From contig JAMQPH010000877.1 of NCBI GenBank assembly GCA_023717605.1, positions 1 to 34,185 on the forward strand: a DNA stretch of 34,185 bases, read 5' to 3'. Below the pieces are notes generated by a model. It saw nothing but the letters and a program-made list of their open reading frames with translations. It was not told the origin of the DNA and did no database searches. A program made the translations under genes and the position numbers. The stretch is from Pyrinomonadaceae bacterium (GTDB taxonomy: Bacteria; Acidobacteriota; Blastocatellia; Pyrinomonadales; Pyrinomonadaceae). Positions 3,110 through 10,413 of the stretch are shown here, piece after piece; positions within the stretch are counted from its first letter, which is position 1; each line of letters begins with the position of its first letter.

Positions 3110-3506
3110 TATGGTTTCCCTCGATTCGTGCCGCGATGGCTCAGTTGCAGCCCAACCTGAACCGATTACGGCGGTCTCCGTTTCAAGCCAAGGCTAAAGA
3201 CGGTGCGGGCAACTGCAACGATGGTGCCACGTTCGTTGATTCAAGATGTAGACGCCAAAAGGGCAGAGATTGATCAGTCGGGCTAGTCCATTAGTGGCGG
3301 AAATATTTCGGATGCAACAAGCATCTGACACTTCAACGAGACTAAAGGGGTCCGTGAGGAAGCGAGGCGGAGCCCACGCGCAGTAAAGACTCGAGGGACG
3401 AAAAGCCCGGATTTGCGAGCGGCTCTTCCTGACTAAACATCCAGCAGGCTACGTGGTAGCGTAATTTTATTCACAGATGGTCATCTTCAGTATTGAGGTC
3501 TTTACC
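3110..3506. other. Intergenic region between divergent genes; possible structured msrB leader
   Basis: About 400 bases without a credible gene. It should hold the promoters of the secreted protein (leftward) and of msrB (rightward), but no clean -35/-10 pair stands out. Bases 3340-3465 look structured: GGGACGAAAAGCC occurs near 3395, and GCTAC-GTG-GTAGC (3448-3460) is a small hairpin followed by the AT-rich ATTTTATTC about 40 bp before the msrB start. I could not fit a known riboswitch family. Confidence 0.35.
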
Positions 3507-4022
3507 GTGAATAGACGTTCCTTTCTTTCATCAGGCATCGCGCTGACAGGATTGACAGCTCTTTCAAGCCTGCCTGTTGTTTCCACCTCTTTCGGGCAAG
3601 ATACGAGCAAGAGCAAGGTTTCTAAAGGAGTTAGAAAAGTGACCAAAACAGACGCCGAATGGAAAAGTATCCTTACTCCCGAGCAGTATCACGTGATGCG
3701 GAAGAAGGGAACTGAGGCACCCTACTCAAGTCCGCTCAATGAAAGTCACGAGCAGGGCGTCTTTGAATGCGCTGGTTGCGGGCTACCCTTGTTCAGCTCA
3801 AAGGCTAAGTTTGATTCAGGCACTGGGTGGCCCAGTTTCTGGAAACCGATTGCCAAGGAGAATGTCGTCGAAGAAGTGGATAACAGCTTGGCAGCAACCC
3901 GTACGGAAGTACTCTGCGCGAGATGCGAGGCGCATCTGGGACACGTTTTTGAAGATGGGCCAGAACCAACGGGCTTGCGCTACTGCATGAACGGTGTGGC
4001 TCTGAAGTTTGTGAAAAAATAA
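3507..4022 (+). CDS. msrB: Peptide-methionine (R)-S-oxide reductase, Tat-exported
   Basis: Reduces methionine-R-sulfoxide in proteins. The GTG start at 3507 is preferred over an ATG at 3477: GAGG lies 8 bp upstream, and the N-terminus then begins VNRRSFLSS, a twin-arginine signal followed by a hydrophobic stretch ([13 protein letters not shown]), implying export to the periplasm. The MsrB fold follows: zinc ligands CAGC and CARC, the GTGWPSF loop, LGHVFEDGP, and the resolving motif RYCMNG with catalytic Cys160 (Cys170 from the upstream ATG). An extra linker (about 30-45) separates the signal from the domain. It is a lone gene, convergent with the ABM gene, and they share a terminator hairpin. 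Family identification is secure; export is inferred from the signal. Confidence 0.94.
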
Positions 4023-4117: not shown

Positions 4118-4438
4118 CTACGCTGTCTTCGCGGCAGCGAGCTTGTGAAGGGTTGACGTGGCAAGCTCAGCGGTCCCAACTCTGGGAGCTCCCTTCACCA
4201 GGTTGCTGAGGGTCTTCAAAACCTCAGGATATCCTGACTCATTGTAAGCGTCCGCCGACTCTTTCGTGTCCCAGAAGCTAATCGCAATAGCTTCCGAGCG
4301 ATCAGGGGCGACAAAAGTGAGCTCATCGCGAAATCCCTTCTGTTTGCGCAGCAGCGGGATAATCTTGCCCTCAACGATGTCGGTAAATTCGGCGGCGGTA
4401 TTGGGCTTTAGTTCCATTATGACGTGACGTGTGAACAT
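4118..4438 (-). CDS. Antibiotic biosynthesis monooxygenase (ABM)-domain protein
   Basis: 106 aa from the ATG at 4438, chosen because AGGAG lies 7 bp upstream on the minus strand; a longer frame to 4567 would read through the inverted-repeat leader. The sequence MFTRHVIMELKPN...FTDIVEGKIIPLLRKQKGF...ISFWDTKESADAY is typical of the dimeric alpha-beta-barrel (ABM) superfamily, with one full domain and no extra parts. Members include quinol and heme-degrading monooxygenases and many stress proteins, so the substrate cannot be given. Its leader is an inverted near-copy of the leader of the divergent gene at 4728, which suggests the two are controlled together. It ends 22 bp before a strong hairpin terminator. 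Confidence 0.85.
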   Translation of the reverse strand: MFTRHVIMELKPNTAAEFTDIVEGKIIPLLRKQKGFRDELTFVAPDRSEAIAISFWDTKESADAYNESGYPEVLKTLSNLVKGAPRVGTAELATSTLHKLAAAKTA

Positions 4439-4453
4439 AGTTGCTCCTTTGAT

Positions 4454-4710
4454 TATTGAGCTGTTGACTTCAGGTGATCTGGAAGATCCCAGAGGAGCTG
4501 AGAAGGGAGTAAGCTGGACTCGTTTCGCTGCGTACCCTATCACGCGTCCACGCGTTTGCCTAATCAAGTGAGTATTGTTGATCCAAGATATATCCTATAC
4601 TTGACATATACCATCTCTTAGCGTAAGATGGCTTTCGAACCGAGTCGCAGCTTGCTCTCTTCTCAGCTCCTCTGGGATCTTCCAGATCACCTGAAACCCA
4701 CAGCTCAATT
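4454..4710. repeat. Long inverted repeat: two near-identical gene leaders in divergent orientation
   Basis: Left arm 4454-4526, right arm about 4638-4710. The arms align over about 73 bases with a few mismatches and two single-base gaps. A 37-base core is perfect (4469-4505 against 4659-4695). Each arm ends about 16 bases before a start codon (4438 leftward, 4728 rightward), so each lies in the 5' untranslated region of its gene. The core holds the palindrome GATCTTCCAGATC. About 110 bases of non-repeated DNA between the arms carry the rightward promoter. Confidence 0.9.
4601..4629 (+). promoter_or_regulatory. Sigma-70 type promoter with shared upstream element
   Basis: TTGACA (4601-4606), 17-bp spacer, TAAGAT (4624-4629). 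The -35 overlaps a 40-base element (4571-4610) that recurs at 7968-8007 with 34/40 identity; within its last 27 bases only two differ. The element has CAAG at 4584 and CTTG at 4600, a possible half-site pair. It would drive the small genes at 4728 and 5005. Confidence 0.7.
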
Positions 4711-4727
4711 ACCAAGAAACTAAAGCA

Positions 4728-4988
4728 ATGACTATGAAACAGCTAGATTGGTGCTGCGTTACGGTCATCGTCGACGAGGACACTACCGAGCTTTTCCAGA
4801 TGCCGGCGCCCGATGAAGATGCAGAGCAGCAACCTGCGTTTCAGGTAACCAAATCGACGGCGGATTTGGTCTCTCAGGATTTCGCTCGATACGAGCCCAG
4901 CTTGCAACGCATGGTCCACGATTGGCGTAAGTCCAAAGAGCAAGTAATGCAAGACAAGAGAACACGGAAACCAGCCCCAACCGCATGA
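4728..4988 (+). CDS. Small hypothetical protein
   Basis: 86 aa, acidic in the middle and basic at the end, with no signal peptide or transmembrane segment. The first third reads as a beta strand (DWCCVTVIVDEDTTELFQMP) and the remainder as a charged helix (LVSQDFARYEPSLQRMVHDWRKSKEQVM). I do not recognise the family. Support for a real gene comes from context: a good promoter at 4601-4629, a leader shared with the divergent ABM gene that ends 17 bases before the ATG, and a second small frame following after 16 bp. There is no strong ribosome site, only AACTAAAG. Confidence 0.6.
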   Translation: MTMKQLDWCCVTVIVDEDTTELFQMPAPDEDAEQQPAFQVTKSTADLVSQDFARYEPSLQRMVHDWRKSKEQVMQDKRTRKPAPTA

Positions 4989-5004
4989 GCAGGCGTAGAA
5001 CCTT

Positions 5005-5262
5005 ATGAGCAAACCAAAGCTTGTCAGTCGAGACACAAGACATTATCTGGTCAAGCGTCCGAATCAAATCCTTGGTAGCGGATTGAGTTGGAATCAGGTG
5101 CAGGCCGAACTGCGGGAAAAAGGCACTGAAGCAGATGAAGCCATGCTATTCAGAGGCATTACGACCGATGACGGTACTGAGTACCGTGATAGATACGCGG
5201 ATAGCCGTACTCAGATCACCGAGCATCGTGCAGAGGAACCCGGAGAGCGAGTGCTTGATTAA
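5005..5262 (+). CDS. Small hypothetical protein
   Basis: 85 aa, highly charged and soluble, 16 bp after the preceding small gene and probably in the same transcript. It has a short predicted helix (WNQVQAELREKGTEADEAML) and a hydrophilic tail rich in Arg, Asp and Glu. I recognise no domain. A second frame (5135-5389) overlaps its 3' half; it is less credible because it lacks a start signal and its composition is random-looking. Moderate confidence that this is expressed. Confidence 0.45.
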   Translation: MSKPKLVSRDTRHYLVKRPNQILGSGLSWNQVQAELREKGTEADEAMLFRGITTDDGTEYRDRYADSRTQITEHRAEEPGERVLD

Positions 5263-5389: not shown

Positions 5390-7345
5390 TCAGGGTTGCG
5401 TTTTAGCTAGGTTCGCGATGGCTGCAATTAACTCGTTCGGCTCCACTGGTTTCGACACAAACATATTGAATCCAGCAAACAAGGCGCGCGTGCGGTCCTC
5501 GACTCGCACATACGCGGTTAGTGCCACCGCCGGAGTGTTCTTGAGATTTTCAATAGCTCTTAGCTTATCAATGAGCGAGTATCCATCCTCTCCCGGCATA
5601 GCCAGATCAGACACAACTACATCGGGCGTATACCACTCAAGCAGTTCAAACGCCTCCGTGACCGACGCGGCGGTTTGTACGTTGGCCCTGAGCCCGCTAA
5701 GCATCGTCGCTAGTATTTGAAGATTATCTCTATCATCGTCTACCAGCAGCACGCGGACATCTTCCAGGCAATTAACAGGTTCAGCGAGTCGCCGGGAATC
5801 CTGAGGCGACCAGGAATTCTCCGACCTCTGGTTACCCGTCTTTGCTGGTATTTTATTAACCGCGAGAGGAAGCCTGATCGTGAACGTAGCGCCTTCTCCC
5901 AATCCGGCACTGTCGGCTTGGACGCTGCCCCCATGAAGCTCAACCAAGTGCCTTACGATTGCGAGGCCCAGGCCAAGACCGCCGTGAGCGCGCGTGGAGG
6001 TGGAATCTGCTTGACGGAAGCGGTCAAAGATGAAAGGGAGAAAATCCGAGCTGATGCCTTGCCCCGTGTCACTTACACAGACCTGGAGAGCTGCGTTGGC
6101 TCGCTCGACTCGAACTTCAACCCTGCCTCCTGAAGGGGTGAATTTGATCGCGTTAGCCAGGAGGTTCCATACCACCTGCTGCAAGCGGCTGGAATCACCC
6201 ACGGTATGACGAACCGAAGGATCGAGTGTCACCTCTAATTGAATGTGTTTTGAATCGGCAGCCAACTGCACGGAGTCAATCGCCGAATTGATGACCGAGG
6301 CCAGATCAACTGGTCCCATGTTGAGTCGAAGGCGGCCCGTGATCACGCGCGACACATCCAGAATATCCTCTATCAGTTGTGCCTGTGACTTTGCATTGCG
6401 GTCGATCGTTTCGAATGCGCGCACCATCGTTGCTTGATCGAGCCTGCCGCTACGAAGCATATGCGACCAGCCCATGATGGCATTAAGCGGAGTGCGAAGT
6501 TCATGCGAGACCGTGGCCAGAAACTCGTCCTTCATGCGATTGGCACTTTCCGCCTCCGCCCGGGCCATCTGTTCGCGAAACAGCGAAGCCCGTAGTTCTT
6601 CCTGAACTTCTTCACGTTGCTTGATTTCAGCTTGCAGCGTTTTTGCCTTCTGCTGTAACTGGACAATTGCCCGGACGCGGTCGTCGTGGTTAACCAAATC
6701 GGCGTAACTCTCGGCCGGAATTACGCGGGAGTGGGCAGTACAAACGCCCGCGAGCGGTTCTACAAATTTCTCACCGCTAAAACCGTTCATTGGATAGGCG
6801 CAGAATAGGGAAAAGGAATAGTTCTTCTGCAGATCGTTCCATAGTTCTTCCAACCGGATGGCGGCTGAATAGTTGCCCTCCGCCCAAAGGAGCGCAACCA
6901 TCTCGCCGAATGCTCTTACACAATTGCGGCCATCCCTAACCCTCTCGATCATCTTTCCAATAACCTGGGTGAAGCGCCTCGGCTCAGGCGATCCGTCCAC
7001 CATAAACTTCGAGAGAGTCTCCGCCGCATCCAGTGAAACGTATTGACCGCGCGCCTTTGCGCTGATTAAGTCCAACCCGTTAGCCTGCAATAGCTCGTCG
7101 AGACCTTCTCGGTGAGCACTGGTCGCTACAACCAAAGCACCATCACCCGAGTTAATGGCCGTGCCAATGAAACCGCTTAGCGAGCTCAGCAGAAAACCGT
7201 CCGCATCGTAGAACTGAACAAAGTGCTCAGAACCACTCATCCCGCGCCAATCCATTTGCGGCGCAAGGTTCCACGTGCTGACGTCATCAGGGTTGCCGTG
7301 AAAAATCTCGGAGACACCGTTCTCGTCATGGTTTGGGTTGATCAA
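5390..7345 (-). CDS. Hybrid sensor histidine kinase/response regulator with MEDS (DcmR-like) sensory domain
   Basis: About 651 aa from a TTG at 7345, chosen because GGGAGG (7351-7356) sits 5 bp upstream; the frame is open to a GTG at 7408 without a ribosome site. Numbering below is from 7408. Residues about 58-230 match the MEDS domain (SEHFVQFYD...GALVVATSAHREGL...GNYSAAIRLEELWNDL...LFCAYP), a cytoplasmic sensory module found in DcmR and in kinases. A coiled coil follows (about 245-290), then HisKA with phospho-accepting His302 in SHELRTP, and a complete HATPase domain (NAIKF, DTGQGI, GGLGLGL). The C-terminal receiver domain has VDDD near its start and phospho-acceptor Asp601 in SDLAMPG. No transmembrane helix, so the kinase is cytosolic. 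No DNA-binding output regulator is adjacent; the small Cro/CI gene upstream is a candidate only by position. Confidence 0.93.
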   Translation of the reverse strand: MINPNHDENGVSEIFHGNPDDVSTWNLAPQMDWRGMSGSEHFVQFYDADGFLLSSLSGFIGTAINSGDGALVVATSAHREGLDELLQANGLDLISAKARGQYVSLDAAETLSKFMVDGSPEPRRFTQVIGKMIERVRDGRNCVRAFGEMVALLWAEGNYSAAIRLEELWNDLQKNYSFSLFCAYPMNGFSGEKFVEPLAGVCTAHSRVIPAESYADLVNHDDRVRAIVQLQQKAKTLQAEIKQREEVQEELRASLFREQMARAEAESANRMKDEFLATVSHELRTPLNAIMGWSHMLRSGRLDQATMVRAFETIDRNAKSQAQLIEDILDVSRVITGRLRLNMGPVDLASVINSAIDSVQLAADSKHIQLEVTLDPSVRHTVGDSSRLQQVVWNLLANAIKFTPSGGRVEVRVERANAALQVCVSDTGQGISSDFLPFIFDRFRQADSTSTRAHGGLGLGLAIVRHLVELHGGSVQADSAGLGEGATFTIRLPLAVNKIPAKTGNQRSENSWSPQDSRRLAEPVNCLEDVRVLLVDDDRDNLQILATMLSGLRANVQTAASVTEAFELLEWYTPDVVVSDLAMPGEDGYSLIDKLRAIENLKNTPAVALTAYVRVEDRTRALFAGFNMFVSKPVEPNELIAAIANLAKTQP

Positions 7346-7630
7346 GAGAGCCTCCCTCGGAGTACTTGTGGAATTATCGTCAAATCGCACCTGGCATTGC
7401 CGAAGCACAGGCCACCCTTGGGCGTCGGCGCATTACTCACTTTTAGGGGGTTGATTCGGCCCTCGGCTGGTACTTCCGACTGGCGCTTCGCTGAAAGGGG
7501 GACAACGCACGGTATTCTACGCAGCTTCTGCTTTGAAATCCAGCGGCGGCAGCCAGCCGAGAGATCTACTCTTTTTGTGTTCGACCAGCACGCACTGACC
7601 TAATCGCAATGAGGTGCACTTAGTCTTTAT

Positions 7631-7930
7631 TTAGATAGCCCGTTTGGGCCGACGGGCATGACCAGCAGATAAAAGACCCACGGTTACTGTTGCTTGCCTT
7701 TTTGTGCTGCGGTTCTTGCGACTCTGCGTTTCGTTGACGAACGTGAGGAGATCGCCGGGTTGGCAGCGAAGCACGAGGCACATTTTCTCCAGGGTCTCGA
7801 AATTGATTCCGAGCGCTTTTCCTTTCTTGAAACGCCAGAGCGTGGTATGGCTGATTCCCGTTTCCTTAGCCAACCAGTAGAAGGTTCGCCCCTGCGCCTC
7901 CAGTAGCTGGTCGACTCGAATTTCAATCAT
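7631..7930 (-). CDS. Small Cro/CI (XRE) family helix-turn-helix regulator
   Basis: 99 aa. An HTH_XRE domain fills residues 1-65: IEIRVDQLLEAQGRTFYWLAKETGISHTTLWRFKKGKA, then NFETLEKMCLVLRCQPGDLL, the typical five-helix arrangement. A basic tail follows (SRKNRSTKRQ). AGGAGGG-like purines (GGAGGGCAG) lie 5-8 bp before the ATG. Upstream DNA holds the regulator's own probable promoter (7950-7978) and a 40-base element (7968-8007) that recurs in the promoter at 4.6 kb. Autoregulation and control of both loci is an inference from that layout. The gene reads in the same direction as the hybrid kinase and precedes it by about 290 bp. Confidence 0.85.
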   Translation of the reverse strand: MIEIRVDQLLEAQGRTFYWLAKETGISHTTLWRFKKGKALGINFETLEKMCLVLRCQPGDLLTFVNETQSRKNRSTKRQATVTVGLLSAGHARRPKRAI

Positions 7931-7978: not shown

Positions 7979-7997
7979 TACAAGATATATTCTGTAC

Positions 7998-8026
7998 TTG
8001 ACATATAAGCGCGGCCAGCGTAGGGT
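7998..8026 (+). promoter_or_regulatory. Rightward promoter overlapping the shared 40-base element
   Basis: TTGACA (7998-8003), 17-bp spacer, TAGGGT (8021-8026). Same position of the element relative to the -35 as at 4601-4629. The -10 is weak. It faces the small-gene island starting at 8394 and is divergent from the regulator's own promoter. Confidence 0.55.
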
Positions 8027-8393: not shown

Positions 8394-8726
8394 ATGGTAA
8401 TTAACACTCTGTATGCCATGCAGCGTGCCAATGGTGACTGGTTCGCGCTTGATGACCACGGCAAGTTTCGCGTGCCAATCTTTCACAGCATCCGCGAGGC
8501 CATGATAGCTCGGTCGCGTGACACCGGGATGGAATGCTTTAAACCGGTGGTGTTGGATGAGGCTGCGTTTGTGAAACTTACAACCACGGATGAAGGAAAG
8601 GCTTGCTTCTGGCTTGTAGGCGATCCTTCTATCAATCTGAGCCGCGGTCGTGCGCTAGATCACGCTCAGCTCGCTCTAGTAATGCACAATGGTAACGGAC
8701 GACCGAAGGATAATGCAGTCGAATGA
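8394..8726 (+). CDS. Hypothetical protein
   Basis: 110 aa from the ATG at 8394; the frame is open back to 8226, but that extension is Arg-rich and unlike a conserved domain. The body has a compact, conserved-looking order: MQRANGDWFALDDHGKFRVPIF, a helix (SIREAMIARSRDTGMECF), then KPVVLDEAAFVKL...ACFWLVGDPS and LDHAQLALVM. It is soluble, with no signal peptide. I recognise no named domain. It leads the run of short rightward genes that ends at 9507. Confidence 0.65.
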   Translation: MVINTLYAMQRANGDWFALDDHGKFRVPIFHSIREAMIARSRDTGMECFKPVVLDEAAFVKLTTTDEGKACFWLVGDPSINLSRGRALDHAQLALVMHNGNGRPKDNAVE

Positions 8727-8904
8727 TGATTTGGTCATGCCGCAACTGTGGAACGATAATGCGCCTTTGGGCAGTAAGGTGCCCGAATTGCCGGAGCTCA
8801 GCTATCAGTTTGTTGCAAATAGGCGTCGTGGTTGGACTTGGAGTTCCGGCAGTGTATCTACTGCTCGGGCTGTTGTAGTAATCGCCTGTGACGGCATGGG
8901 CTAA
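8713..8904 (+). CDS. Possible very small hypothetical protein
   Basis: 63 aa, overlapping the 3' end of the preceding gene by 14 bp in another frame, an arrangement that would suit translational coupling. The sequence (LWNDNAPLGSKVPELPELSYQFVANRRRGWTWSSGS) resembles nothing I know. No ribosome site is visible. It may be a chance frame. Confidence 0.3.
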   Translation: MQSNDDLVMPQLWNDNAPLGSKVPELPELSYQFVANRRRGWTWSSGSVSTARAVVVIACDGMG

Positions 8905-8945
8905 CTTTATTCATGAGGACCGAGAAGGACCGAGAAGTAAACACT

Positions 8946-9239
8946 ATGGCTGTAACACACAAAGCTACGAGAAATGATTTCAGCGATGTTGCCAACGAAG
9001 GGGTGTGGCCGGGAATTGATTCGAGGTTTCGGCTAATTATCGTAGCCGGCTTGAGAACGAAGCAATTACTGCATGGGTCAAAGCCACGCATCGAGACTGA
9101 TCCGCTGAAACGAAGAAACACCACTATTGCGCTCGAGGAAGTGAAGCGAGGGTTGGTGCCCTTCACTGTCCCGGCTATGAAGGCCAACGACGGAGGCTTT
9201 GATCGACCCTTGAGTGGAAAGTCACAATCGATAGCGTAA
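8946..9239 (+). CDS. RNA polymerase omega subunit homologue (RpoZ-like)
   Basis: About 97 aa from the ATG at 8946 (108 aa from an ATG at 8913). The central part reads GIDSRFRLIIVAGLRTKQL, then PRIETD...KRRNTTIALEEVKRGLVPFTV, which matches the omega fold: the conserved R-F/Y-x-L-V/I-x-V-A-x-x-R-x-x-Q-L helix and the T-x-I-A-L-x-E-V/I-x-x-G motif. Omega binds the beta-prime C-terminus, helps assemble RNA polymerase and in many bacteria forms part of a ppGpp site. The usual bacterial rpoZ sits beside gmk; here the neighbours are short unknown genes and a Cro/CI regulator, so this is more likely an additional omega than the housekeeping copy. That needs the rest of the genome to settle. Confidence 0.82.
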   Translation: MAVTHKATRNDFSDVANEGVWPGIDSRFRLIIVAGLRTKQLLHGSKPRIETDPLKRRNTTIALEEVKRGLVPFTVPAMKANDGGFDRPLSGKSQSIA

Positions 9240-9258
9240 ACCGACCGAAAGCGACCAC

Positions 9259-9507
9259 ATGACGATGAACGGACTACGAGTCTATATCAAGCCCAATGGA
9301 ACCGATCTTCGCAACAGTCACGAGGTCTTCTATAGCCGGCGTGGGAATGGCCCCTACTATCGCTGGCTTTATGAGGAGAATGCTGCCCAATGGCGCGTCT
9401 CGCGGGTTATCTCAGCAGACTTCACACCGCAGTCACTAGCTATGGCCAGTTGGAAGGCCGTGCCGGTAGCTCTGCAAACCAGGTTAGGTGAACACTACCT
9501 GGAATAG
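9259..9507 (+). CDS. Small hypothetical protein
   Basis: 82 aa, 19 bp after the omega homologue and likely co-transcribed. The sequence is rich in aromatic residues: EVFYSRRGNGPYYRWLYEE, AQWRVSRV, then SLAMASWKAVPVALQTRLGEHYLE. The W-x-V/A-P-x-x-L-Q-x-R-L-x-E-H-Y ending looks conserved, and I have the impression of similar small proteins in Acidobacteria, but no function is known to me. No signal or membrane segment. A second ATG two codons in (9265) is an equally good start. Confidence 0.65.
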   Translation: MTMNGLRVYIKPNGTDLRNSHEVFYSRRGNGPYYRWLYEENAAQWRVSRVISADFTPQSLAMASWKAVPVALQTRLGEHYLE

Positions 9508-9561
9508 GGTAGAAACCTGACAGCATTGACGCCAACTAAAACAAGATAAGGAAGACGACTA

Positions 9562-10413
9562 TTGGTGACCGAGTCCACAATCAGTCCCGCTAAACAACAA
9601 AACTCGCCTAAACTTTCTCAGCTGAATTGGACCCACAGCTTTCTTGTCGTTAGCTTACATGCCGGCGGTCTCCTGGGGTTGTGGTTCTGGCCTCGGCCAG
9701 TTGACCTGGTCTTGTTTCTGGGCCTGTATCTGGCGACGACCTTCGCTATAGGCATCGGCTACCACCGTCTGCTCACGCATCGGGGCTTTGTGTCGCCTCG
9801 TTGGCTAAGACGCCTGCTCGCGTGGATGGGCGCCGCCGCATTGCAAGGAGGACCGGCGCGTTGGGCGGCGATTCACCGTCGTCACCACCAGATGGCCGAC
9901 AAACATGGCGATCCTCATTCACCACTGATGGGATTTCTACACGCGCACGTGGGATGGGTGATGACTCGCGACGCAAAAGAGGGAAGCGATTACCGGGAGA
10001 TTGTCCCTGACGTATCCGGAAGCGATCCCTGGTTGCGGGTCCTTGATTACAAGGTTCTGTTCGTTATGCCCTGGGTGCTTACTGCGCTGTTTTGTTTCGC
10101 GGTCGCGGGCTGGCGTGGTGTGTTATGGGGAACCGTGCTCAGAACCTTGACCTTGTGGCACTTGACCTGGTGCATTAATAGCGTGTGCCATGTCCTGGGA
10201 AAACGCCCGAATATGACTCGAGACGAGAGCCGGAACGTCTGGTGGCTGGGACTCTTAACGCTCGGAGAAGGCTGGCACAACAACCATCACGCGCGGCCGG
10301 CGGCTGCAGTGCACGGCTGGCGTTGGTATCAGATCGACGTCTCAGGATACGTGATTCGACTGTTGGCCCGGCTGGGCCTGATCCGGAACGTCGTGAGAGA
10401 ACCTCAGATCTAG
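9562..10413 (+). CDS. Membrane fatty-acid (acyl-CoA delta-9 type) desaturase
   Basis: 283 aa; TTG at 9562 or GTG at 9565, with AAGGAAG (9548-9554) at proper spacing. An integral-membrane di-iron enzyme that would introduce a cis double bond into saturated acyl chains. The three histidine boxes are present in order: HRLLTH (about 70), HRRHH (about 107) and HNNHH near residue 242, which with an upstream His in the LTWCINSVCH region supply the di-iron ligands. Hydrophobic segments at about 28-65 and 165-195 fit the usual four-helix layout. It is paralogous to the desaturase at 20185, with all boxes shared. It is convergent with the MarC-type gene. Confidence 0.92.
   Translation: MVTESTISPAKQQNSPKLSQLNWTHSFLVVSLHAGGLLGLWFWPRPVDLVLFLGLYLATTFAIGIGYHRLLTHRGFVSPRWLRRLLAWMGAAALQGGPARWAAIHRRHHQMADKHGDPHSPLMGFLHAHVGWVMTRDAKEGSDYREIVPDVSGSDPWLRVLDYKVLFVMPWVLTALFCFAVAGWRGVLWGTVLRTLTLWHLTWCINSVCHVLGKRPNMTRDESRNVWWLGLLTLGEGWHNNHHARPAAAVHGWRWYQIDVSGYVIRLLARLGLIRNVVREPQI

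Follow-up and report, generated by a model that had tools for sequence, protein, structure and literature searches.

The inverted repeat that lies between two divergent genes of a Pyrinomonadaceae bacterium is probably a pair of copies of one structured 5' leader RNA, which would act post-transcriptionally on a stress-type regulon. The leader itself is a dispersed element of Acidobacteriota, class Blastocatellia, standing before unrelated genes, and 120 distinct copies of it were gathered from 61 genomes. In soil bacteria that have received little study, it links RNA-binding and STAS proteins and Hsp20 with an accessory chaperonin operon; to our knowledge, it is uncommon for a shared leader to gather many unrelated genes into a single post-transcriptional regulon.

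The window, by which we mean the whole analysed stretch of 34,185 nucleotides, contains inverted arms at 4449-4516 and 4648-4715 that are 68 nt long, 90% complementary and 131 nt apart according to a repeat search, with a longest exact inverted core of 37 nt (4469-4505 and 4659-4695). The original prediction, which described inverted copies with a perfect 37-base core, was right about the core, and its coordinates (4454-4710) agree with the repeat arms to within about ten bases. A covariance model of the family recognises both copies end to end, copy 1 on the minus strand (4526 to 4448, 98.3 bits) and copy 2 on the plus strand (4637 to 4716, 93.8 bits), matches that are given by construction because both copies are in its seed alignment. 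The model gives 12 further rows in the window at E values up to 10: a pair at E 0.1 that is antisense to the same hairpin, and others of which the strongest has E 1.3. From the end of the model copy to the start codon there are 9 nt in the ABM-like gene and 11 nt in the 86-aa gene. Since each arm is the sense-oriented 5' UTR of its own gene, both transcripts are predicted to start with a near-identical sequence of about 79 nt. The genes and leaders concerned, with their neighbours, are as follows.

4118-4438, minus strand: ABM-like gene, 106 aa (Pfam ABM, E 0.00019, just under the curated cut-off)
4448-4526, minus strand, reading 4526 to 4448: leader RNA copy 1, 5' UTR of the ABM-like gene (repeat search, covariance model)
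4637-4716, plus strand: leader RNA copy 2, 5' UTR of the 86-aa gene (repeat search, covariance model)
4728-4988, plus strand: 86-aa gene, with a homologue that has its own leader in locus L037
5005-5262, plus strand: 85-aa gene, directly after the 86-aa gene in the window and in L037
8-2449: ribonucleotide reductase, window neighbour
3477-4022: SelR-domain protein, window neighbour
5390-7408: MEDS sensor histidine kinase with receiver domain, window neighbour

The three neighbours are ordinary, and the products of the 86-aa and 85-aa genes (4728-4988 and 5005-5262) have no match in Pfam, NCBIfam or PHROGs. The two proteins behind the arms were called unrelated in the original prediction, rightly so, and both nonetheless belong to a larger set of leader-linked genes. 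The palindrome GATCTTCCAGATC, to which it also drew attention, is indeed present in both arms but proved incidental; we rejected it as a working palindrome, for it is found in only 11 of the 120 family copies. The pairing that the leader family keeps is TCTGG/CCAGA around a six-base loop.

When the right arm was used as a DNA query, a third copy appeared in the same genome (G000), on contig C88. The gene behind it is homologous to the ABM-like gene, and its product is 58% identical to the window protein. The sign by which the repeat was to be dismissed, its presence only here and absence from close relatives, is contradicted by DNA matches to the leader in 24 of the 59 genomes of the relatives set and by the class-wide result of the covariance model (57 of 162 genomes, up to 6 places in each, E<=0.001). 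For this model the element was aligned from 42 copies, which as its seed match it by construction, and the model was then carried into the wider searches. It finds three good copies in the window's own genome (the next row has E 0.93), the leader in 49 of 119 genomes of the family (E<=0.01), and in 12 of 396 genomes sampled across the phylum, one of which (G331) lies outside the class. The own genome is included in all these numbers, and, as sets of over 40 genomes were searched with stricter filters and only part of the candidates was scored, the leader counts in them are lower bounds. The genome search for the repeat and the genes downstream, proposed along with the original prediction, shows that it recurs before many unrelated genes.

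Matches to one exact leader pattern among named genomes comprise 12 stretches, all of them from Acidobacteriota MAGs (seven Pyrinomonadaceae, two Blastocatellia and three named only Acidobacteria). One exact pattern has no match in viral contigs, on which ground a phage origin was rejected. The copy outside the class, L092 of G331, is a 56-bit leader with an ABM-like gene, and it is possible that the two were transferred together. Further divergent leader pairs with other genes are seen in L071 (1501 minus, 2083 plus), L107 (2486 minus, 2986 plus) and L069 (1501 minus, 2950 plus), so that the arrangement of the window recurs. In one locus, L123 of G156, three leader-like copies that all point the same way lie inside 1.4 kb, and the weakest of them scores 34 bits.

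The 120 copies derive from 126 starting rows. Before the count, five rows were set aside: L061 and L106:3520, which show L044 and L030 a second time, and three weak rows of 17-22 bits (L098:556, L125:2250 and L110:1062). L099 was then removed, since its first ~120 nt are identical to those of L042:3159, while weak copies down to 26 bits were retained. For the genes behind the leaders, open frames within 450 nt were clustered on the sense side alone, with the direction control run separately. The nearest labelled gene is GroES in 17 copies, STAS in 17, ABM in 15 and RRM in 11; eight smaller clusters account for 26 copies and 34 have no labelled cluster. In the control, matches to these four families within 700 nt fall downstream on the sense strand in 70 cases and downstream antisense in one, with five divergent and two same-strand matches upstream. 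At E 0.01 or better, 11 of 20 scanned representatives fall into a Pfam family, and the names met among representatives are Cpn10, STAS, ABM, RRM_1, CarD, fasciclin, fatty acid desaturase and DUF4440, ABM being below the cut-off and hence a weak label. Pfam also names three of the 34 unlabelled genes, HSP20 (L111), NusG (L119) and a BipA GTPase (L152), the last of which stands behind a 26-bit copy. Behind the leader of contig C88 the row of genes reads ABM-like, groES, groEL and RRM, where the ABM-like protein has no Pfam match at E 0.01. As regards the history of the leaders, the nearest copy in another genome precedes the same gene in 41 of 60 copies of the four main classes, which indicates that leaders are partly inherited with the gene and partly exchanged or held alike.

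A -10-like TANNNT at -15 to -9 from the element is present in 103 of the 120 copies (in 200 shuffles the count averaged 18.6 and never exceeded 31), and TTGAC stands at the right distance in 88. Reading by eye the copies without TTGAC, we recognise at least two further kinds of promoter, one of the form GATTAGG..GTGATARaGT, which includes that of the window's ABM-like gene, and another, CTATACAG..ATATAGT, in about six copies. The G of GAACCGAG is where most of the transcripts would be expected to start. The placement of the -10 together with the several promoter types indicates that the element starts at the predicted start of the transcript under several promoters, which in the window are the following.

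4534-4565, minus strand: promoter region of the ABM-like gene, of the other type, with GATTAGG (4565-4559) and -10 TAGGGT (4539-4534)
4601-4629, plus strand: predicted sigma-70-type promoter TTGACA-17-TAAGAT of copy 2

The leader looks untranslated, given the scarcity of AUG, which occurs within the first 70 nt in seven of 120 leaders against 55% of shuffles. No terminator-like site is present within 4300-5000 of the window, a T5 run follows hairpin 2 in only eight of 120 copies, and transcription attenuation was rejected on these two grounds. The original prediction left two choices, of which the shared leader RNA element gains support from the sense-side excess (70 matches against 8), the -10 in 103 of 120 copies and the variety of promoter types, while the duplicated operator is not favoured by an element that is sense-sided, behind the -10 and under several types of promoter.

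The family consensus is GAAcCGAGucCAGCUuACUCccUUC-UCAGcuccUCUGGAAUCnnCCAGAucacCUGA-n5-ACAGCUC, and the fold that we predict from the family for copy 2 has the following parts.

4637-4662, plus strand: hairpin 1, with GAA..UUC outside and GAGU (4642-4645) paired with GCUC (4654-4657)
4649-4652, plus strand: AGCU loop of hairpin 1
4663-4694, plus strand: hairpin 2, with outer UCAG/CUGA, UCUGG (4671-4675) paired with CCAGA (4682-4686) and loop GAUCUU
4702-4705, plus strand: AGCU tail, proposed pseudoknot partner of the AGCU loop of hairpin 1

Mutual information, computed on a MAFFT alignment of all 120 copies with no structure assumed, gives its top score to pair 39-50 of inner hairpin 2, and places 41-48 3rd, 5-27 4th, 31-58 6th and 38-51 10th, with non-helix pairs interspersed; the pairs 16-70 and 17-69, which join the AGCU loop of hairpin 1 to the AGCU tail, come 15th and 17th. 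When whole stacks are ranked by covariation, inner hairpin 2 is 2 of 2628, outer hairpin 1 is 10 of 2926, inner hairpin 1 is 45 of 2775 and outer hairpin 2, where no double change occurs, is 257 of 2775. The pseudoknot ranks 5 of 2775, a rank that is non-independent because the pseudoknot was chosen after the covariation table had been seen. With column pair 12-20 and the pseudoknot omitted, the 15 hairpin pairs together reach 8.01, and none of twelve slid versions exceeds 0.88. The complete 5-pair inner stem is found by a simple scan in 92 of the 120 copies, and the cells of inner hairpin 2 contain 26 G-U against 13 A-C; A-C mismatches exceed G-U in three of the five helices. About 65 nt are conserved, mostly not symmetric, and the letters of the loops and the tail (GCU, AGC and the A of AAUC) show roughly the same conservation as the stems.

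The covariance check suggested earlier thus has a divided outcome, with helix-level support for two hairpins and no single base pair significant under a phylogenetic null that keeps column rates (best E 3.6). In the 42-copy alignment three of six slid versions reach or exceed the covariation score of the structure, 0.073; there the true register alone pairs well, in 95% of cells against 28-47%. RNAalifold on the 42 copies gave different pairs, and for 10 of 11 copies the folding energy does not stand out from shuffles by more than 2 sd. A swap test of loop and tail was negative in the 53 variant copies, where 1747 of 2000 swaps do as well; over all 113 parsed copies (seven of the 120 could not be parsed) the number is 102 of 1000 swaps. 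Taken together, hairpin 2 is likely to be real and hairpin 1 is probable, and the loop-tail AGCU pseudoknot is offered as a suggestion.

Many leader copies also have in common an AT-rich block over the -35; one of its sites in the window faces a small regulator gene.

4588-4610, plus strand: AT-rich promoter box ATATATYCTRYAYTTGACATATA of the 86-aa gene, overlapping the -35
7631-7930, minus strand: small Cro/C1-type HTH_26 regulator, which the box at 7985 faces
7985-8007, plus strand: third promoter box of the own genome, with no leader behind it

With up to 3 mismatches allowed, the box pattern ATATATYCTRYACTTGACATATA has three matches in the own genome (7.4 Mb) and the reversed control has none; the sites lie before the leader of the 86-aa gene, before the C88 leader, and at 7985-8007. 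A slightly wider pattern gives 33 matches, spread over 14 of the 16 genomes of the genus, and none in the control; by hand comparison a leader stands 25-26 nt after 22 of these boxes and at 41 nt after one (G012 C140), and 10 have none. Box and leader thus combine freely, as box with leader, box alone, or leader with other promoters. Homologues of the HTH_26 gene stand divergently upstream of 27 of the 120 leaders, in 23 genomes and 11 genera, at a distance of 102-131 nt save for one row at 33, where the match starts inside the gene, and the leaders beside them precede STAS, GroES, ABM, RRM and other genes. As the gene adjoins leaderless boxes too (at 7985 in the window and in L037), the box is suggested to be its site, and the HTH_26 protein likely binds there, as judged from this gene neighbourhood. 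There is perhaps an operator as well, whose candidate site is upstream of the leader, in the promoter box, and not in the repeat.

A strongly palindromic box was considered and rejected, the excess over mononucleotide shuffles being modest: the mean is 10.0 of 16 against 8.5 in the 27 copies next to HTH_26 genes, and 8.5 against 8.0 in 50 other copies. Compared with solved structures, the HTH_26 protein has as its sole matches 13-14 residues, to entries named Cake. The genes after the leaderless box, at 8394-10413, encode a 110-aa protein, an Rpb6/omega-like protein, an 82-aa protein and a fatty acid desaturase; by eye, look-alikes of some of them sit behind a leader elsewhere (L116, L104 and L040, and for the desaturase L120 and L138).

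It might be argued that the repeat serves a dimeric regulator as its DNA operator, placed downstream of the start site, and that what is conserved is a dyad and no RNA fold. Hairpin 2 has a core that is at once a DNA dyad, in which paired changes would look the same, CIRCE is in other bacteria an operator close to the start site, the HTH_26 gene recurs beside 27 of 120 copies, and the excess of A-C over G-U outside inner hairpin 2 and the pseudoknot is unexplained by RNA pairing. We nevertheless find an operator improbable: most of the ~65 conserved nucleotides are without symmetry, the element keeps a single orientation just behind the predicted -10 of several promoter types, inner hairpin 2 varies by G-U rather than A-C, the loop-tail pairs rank among the first stacks (5 of 2775), and the HTH_26 gene beside leaderless boxes suggests that the box is its site. 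There is hardly any room for a recent functionless inversion-duplication within the window, although two near-identical inverted arms only 131 nt apart might invite it. The arms are 0.917 alike, while the closest copy to the left arm (0.931) precedes groES in G006 and that to the right arm (0.944) precedes RRM in G007, so that each arm is closer to a copy before another gene in another genome than to its partner; with the matches in relatives and across the class, this led us to reject a local duplication.

The main rival to a common trans factor is a mere 5'-end stabiliser, a hairpin that would need neither ligand nor partner to protect stress mRNAs against 5'-end-dependent decay. It agrees with a hairpin 1 that starts at the predicted +1 and with distances from element to open frame that run from under 10 to over 400 nt, so that direct ribosome control need not apply to every copy; the conservation of the loop and tail letters (GCU, AGC, the A of AAUC) beyond the need of a mere stem speaks against it, and we regard it as rather unlikely, if less so than the other alternatives. 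An RNA thermometer, in which the leader would mask the ribosome binding site and melt with heat, suits a gene set that includes groES and hsp20. Pairing of the ribosome site with CUCC is predicted at 0.57-0.89 for the window's ABM-like copy, four ABM copies and one STAS copy, and over 44 copies with a site the latter is predicted to pair with something at a mean of 0.68. Pairing with the CUCC region, however, averages 0.13 over these 44 and exceeds 0.5 in six, and the groES frame begins 49-214 nt past the element in 15 of 19 copies. General masking of the ribosome site was rejected accordingly and a thermometer seems doubtful, much as the operator does; by the predicted pairing, the CUCC region perhaps masks the site as an extra control in the five ABM copies and the STAS one.

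We return to the leader RNA. Its fixed place and orientation behind unlike promoters, the avoidance of AUG and the compensated or G-U changes of the main stem argue that it acts on the mRNA and not on DNA, and that one sequence precedes so many genes is most simply explained by a common trans factor. We propose that each copy begins where transcription of its gene is predicted to start, and that the RNA would fold into hairpin 1 at the extreme 5' end and hairpin 2 with a conserved AAUC/GAUC loop, to which the loop-tail AGCU pseudoknot is perhaps added. A factor common to the cell would bind this fold and set jointly the translation or life-time of all these mRNAs, which encode the chaperonin operon, Hsp20, RRM RNA-binding proteins, STAS and ABM-like proteins and a desaturase, genes of a putative stress type. 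Transcription of many of the same operons would be set separately by the AT-rich promoter box, with the small HTH_26 regulator encoded beside some boxes as its likely binder. Going further, we tentatively entertain a phylum-specific global post-transcriptional control, in which the pseudoknotted leader, swapped as a module between promoters and genes, would act atop the HTH_26/box switch through a single factor (an RNA-binding protein, a small RNA or a metabolite) that sets translation or decay of the regulon. The leader is directly testable, as the covariance model is ready and candidate partners can be named, HTH_26 for the promoter box and an RNA-binding factor for the leader.

Set against known systems the leader family is probably new, being in none of the libraries searched. 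Rfam gives no match in the window at the gathering threshold, and at a permissive setting 26 loci yield three rows, mir-1197 (L029), tRNA (L139) and Acido-Lenti-1 (L128), all outside the leader; the L128 row (937-968), Acido-Lenti-1-like and under the gathering score, is next to a leader copy. In the open-licence literature no leader RNA of Blastocatellia or Pyrinomonadaceae was found among the best-ranked matches, nothing on Blastocatellia riboswitches, and none on such an element for Acidobacteria leader RNA. A riboswitch expression platform is not apparent either, with no terminator-like site in 4300-5000 and no general masking of the ribosome site predicted. For an aptamer-like fold, as a riboswitch would have, the signs are mixed: conserved loop and tail letters and covarying helices on one side, no significant single pair and a negative swap test on the other. 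FourU thermometers lie in 5' leaders of heat-shock genes and, as ROSE elements do, mask the ribosome binding site in a hairpin, whereas in our leader masking is predicted in six of 44 copies. ROSE-type RNA thermometers are 5' leaders of heat-shock genes that act post-transcriptionally (PMC12857270, PMC11342760, PMC11182007). Acido-1 and Acido-Lenti-1 (RF01686, RF01687) are structured RNAs named from Acidobacteria and given as not cis-regulatory (PMC2864571). In the window and the 26 loci, neither model matches the leader. The cspA-type cold-shock leaders are similar in that one conserved 5' leader from +1 is common to several stress genes, but belong to another gene set and another phylum; the comparison was made through Rfam.

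As to the trans factor, RbpB of Bacteroides is described as a global RNA-binding protein (PMC11697453). RbpB-like RRM proteins are a candidate kind of factor, and RRM genes themselves carry the leader in 11 copies. RRM is present in 159 of 162 class genomes and has no match in G009, which has three leaders, so that its presence does not single it out; RRM as a factor confined to leader genomes was rejected on these data. NusG paralogues (RfaH/LoaP) are recruited by a short leader signal of long operons, and one leader copy (L119) precedes a NusG/RfaH-like gene.

The comparison with CIRCE, a 27-bp DNA operator with an inverted repeat near the start of the groESL transcript that controls chaperonin genes with HrcA, can be made within a single genome. 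The own genome has three groES loci, on C44, C88 and C150 (L165, L166 and L167). The CIRCE pattern TTAGCACTC-N9-GAGTGCTAA is found with 1 mismatch at L165 and in a CIRCE-like form with 3 mismatches at L167, and not at up to 4 mismatches in the stretch scanned at L166, the C88 groES with the leader. HrcA occurs in 148 of 162 class genomes, from which it follows that the leader does not simply replace it, and a substitute for lost HrcA/CIRCE was rejected; CIRCE-like sites of up to 3 mismatches are counted in 134 of the 162, a soft number because a reversed control pattern also matches in most genomes. CIRCE or CIRCE-like sites at two groES loci and the leader at the third, without CIRCE, suggest a split of labour in this genome between CIRCE-type sites and the leader.
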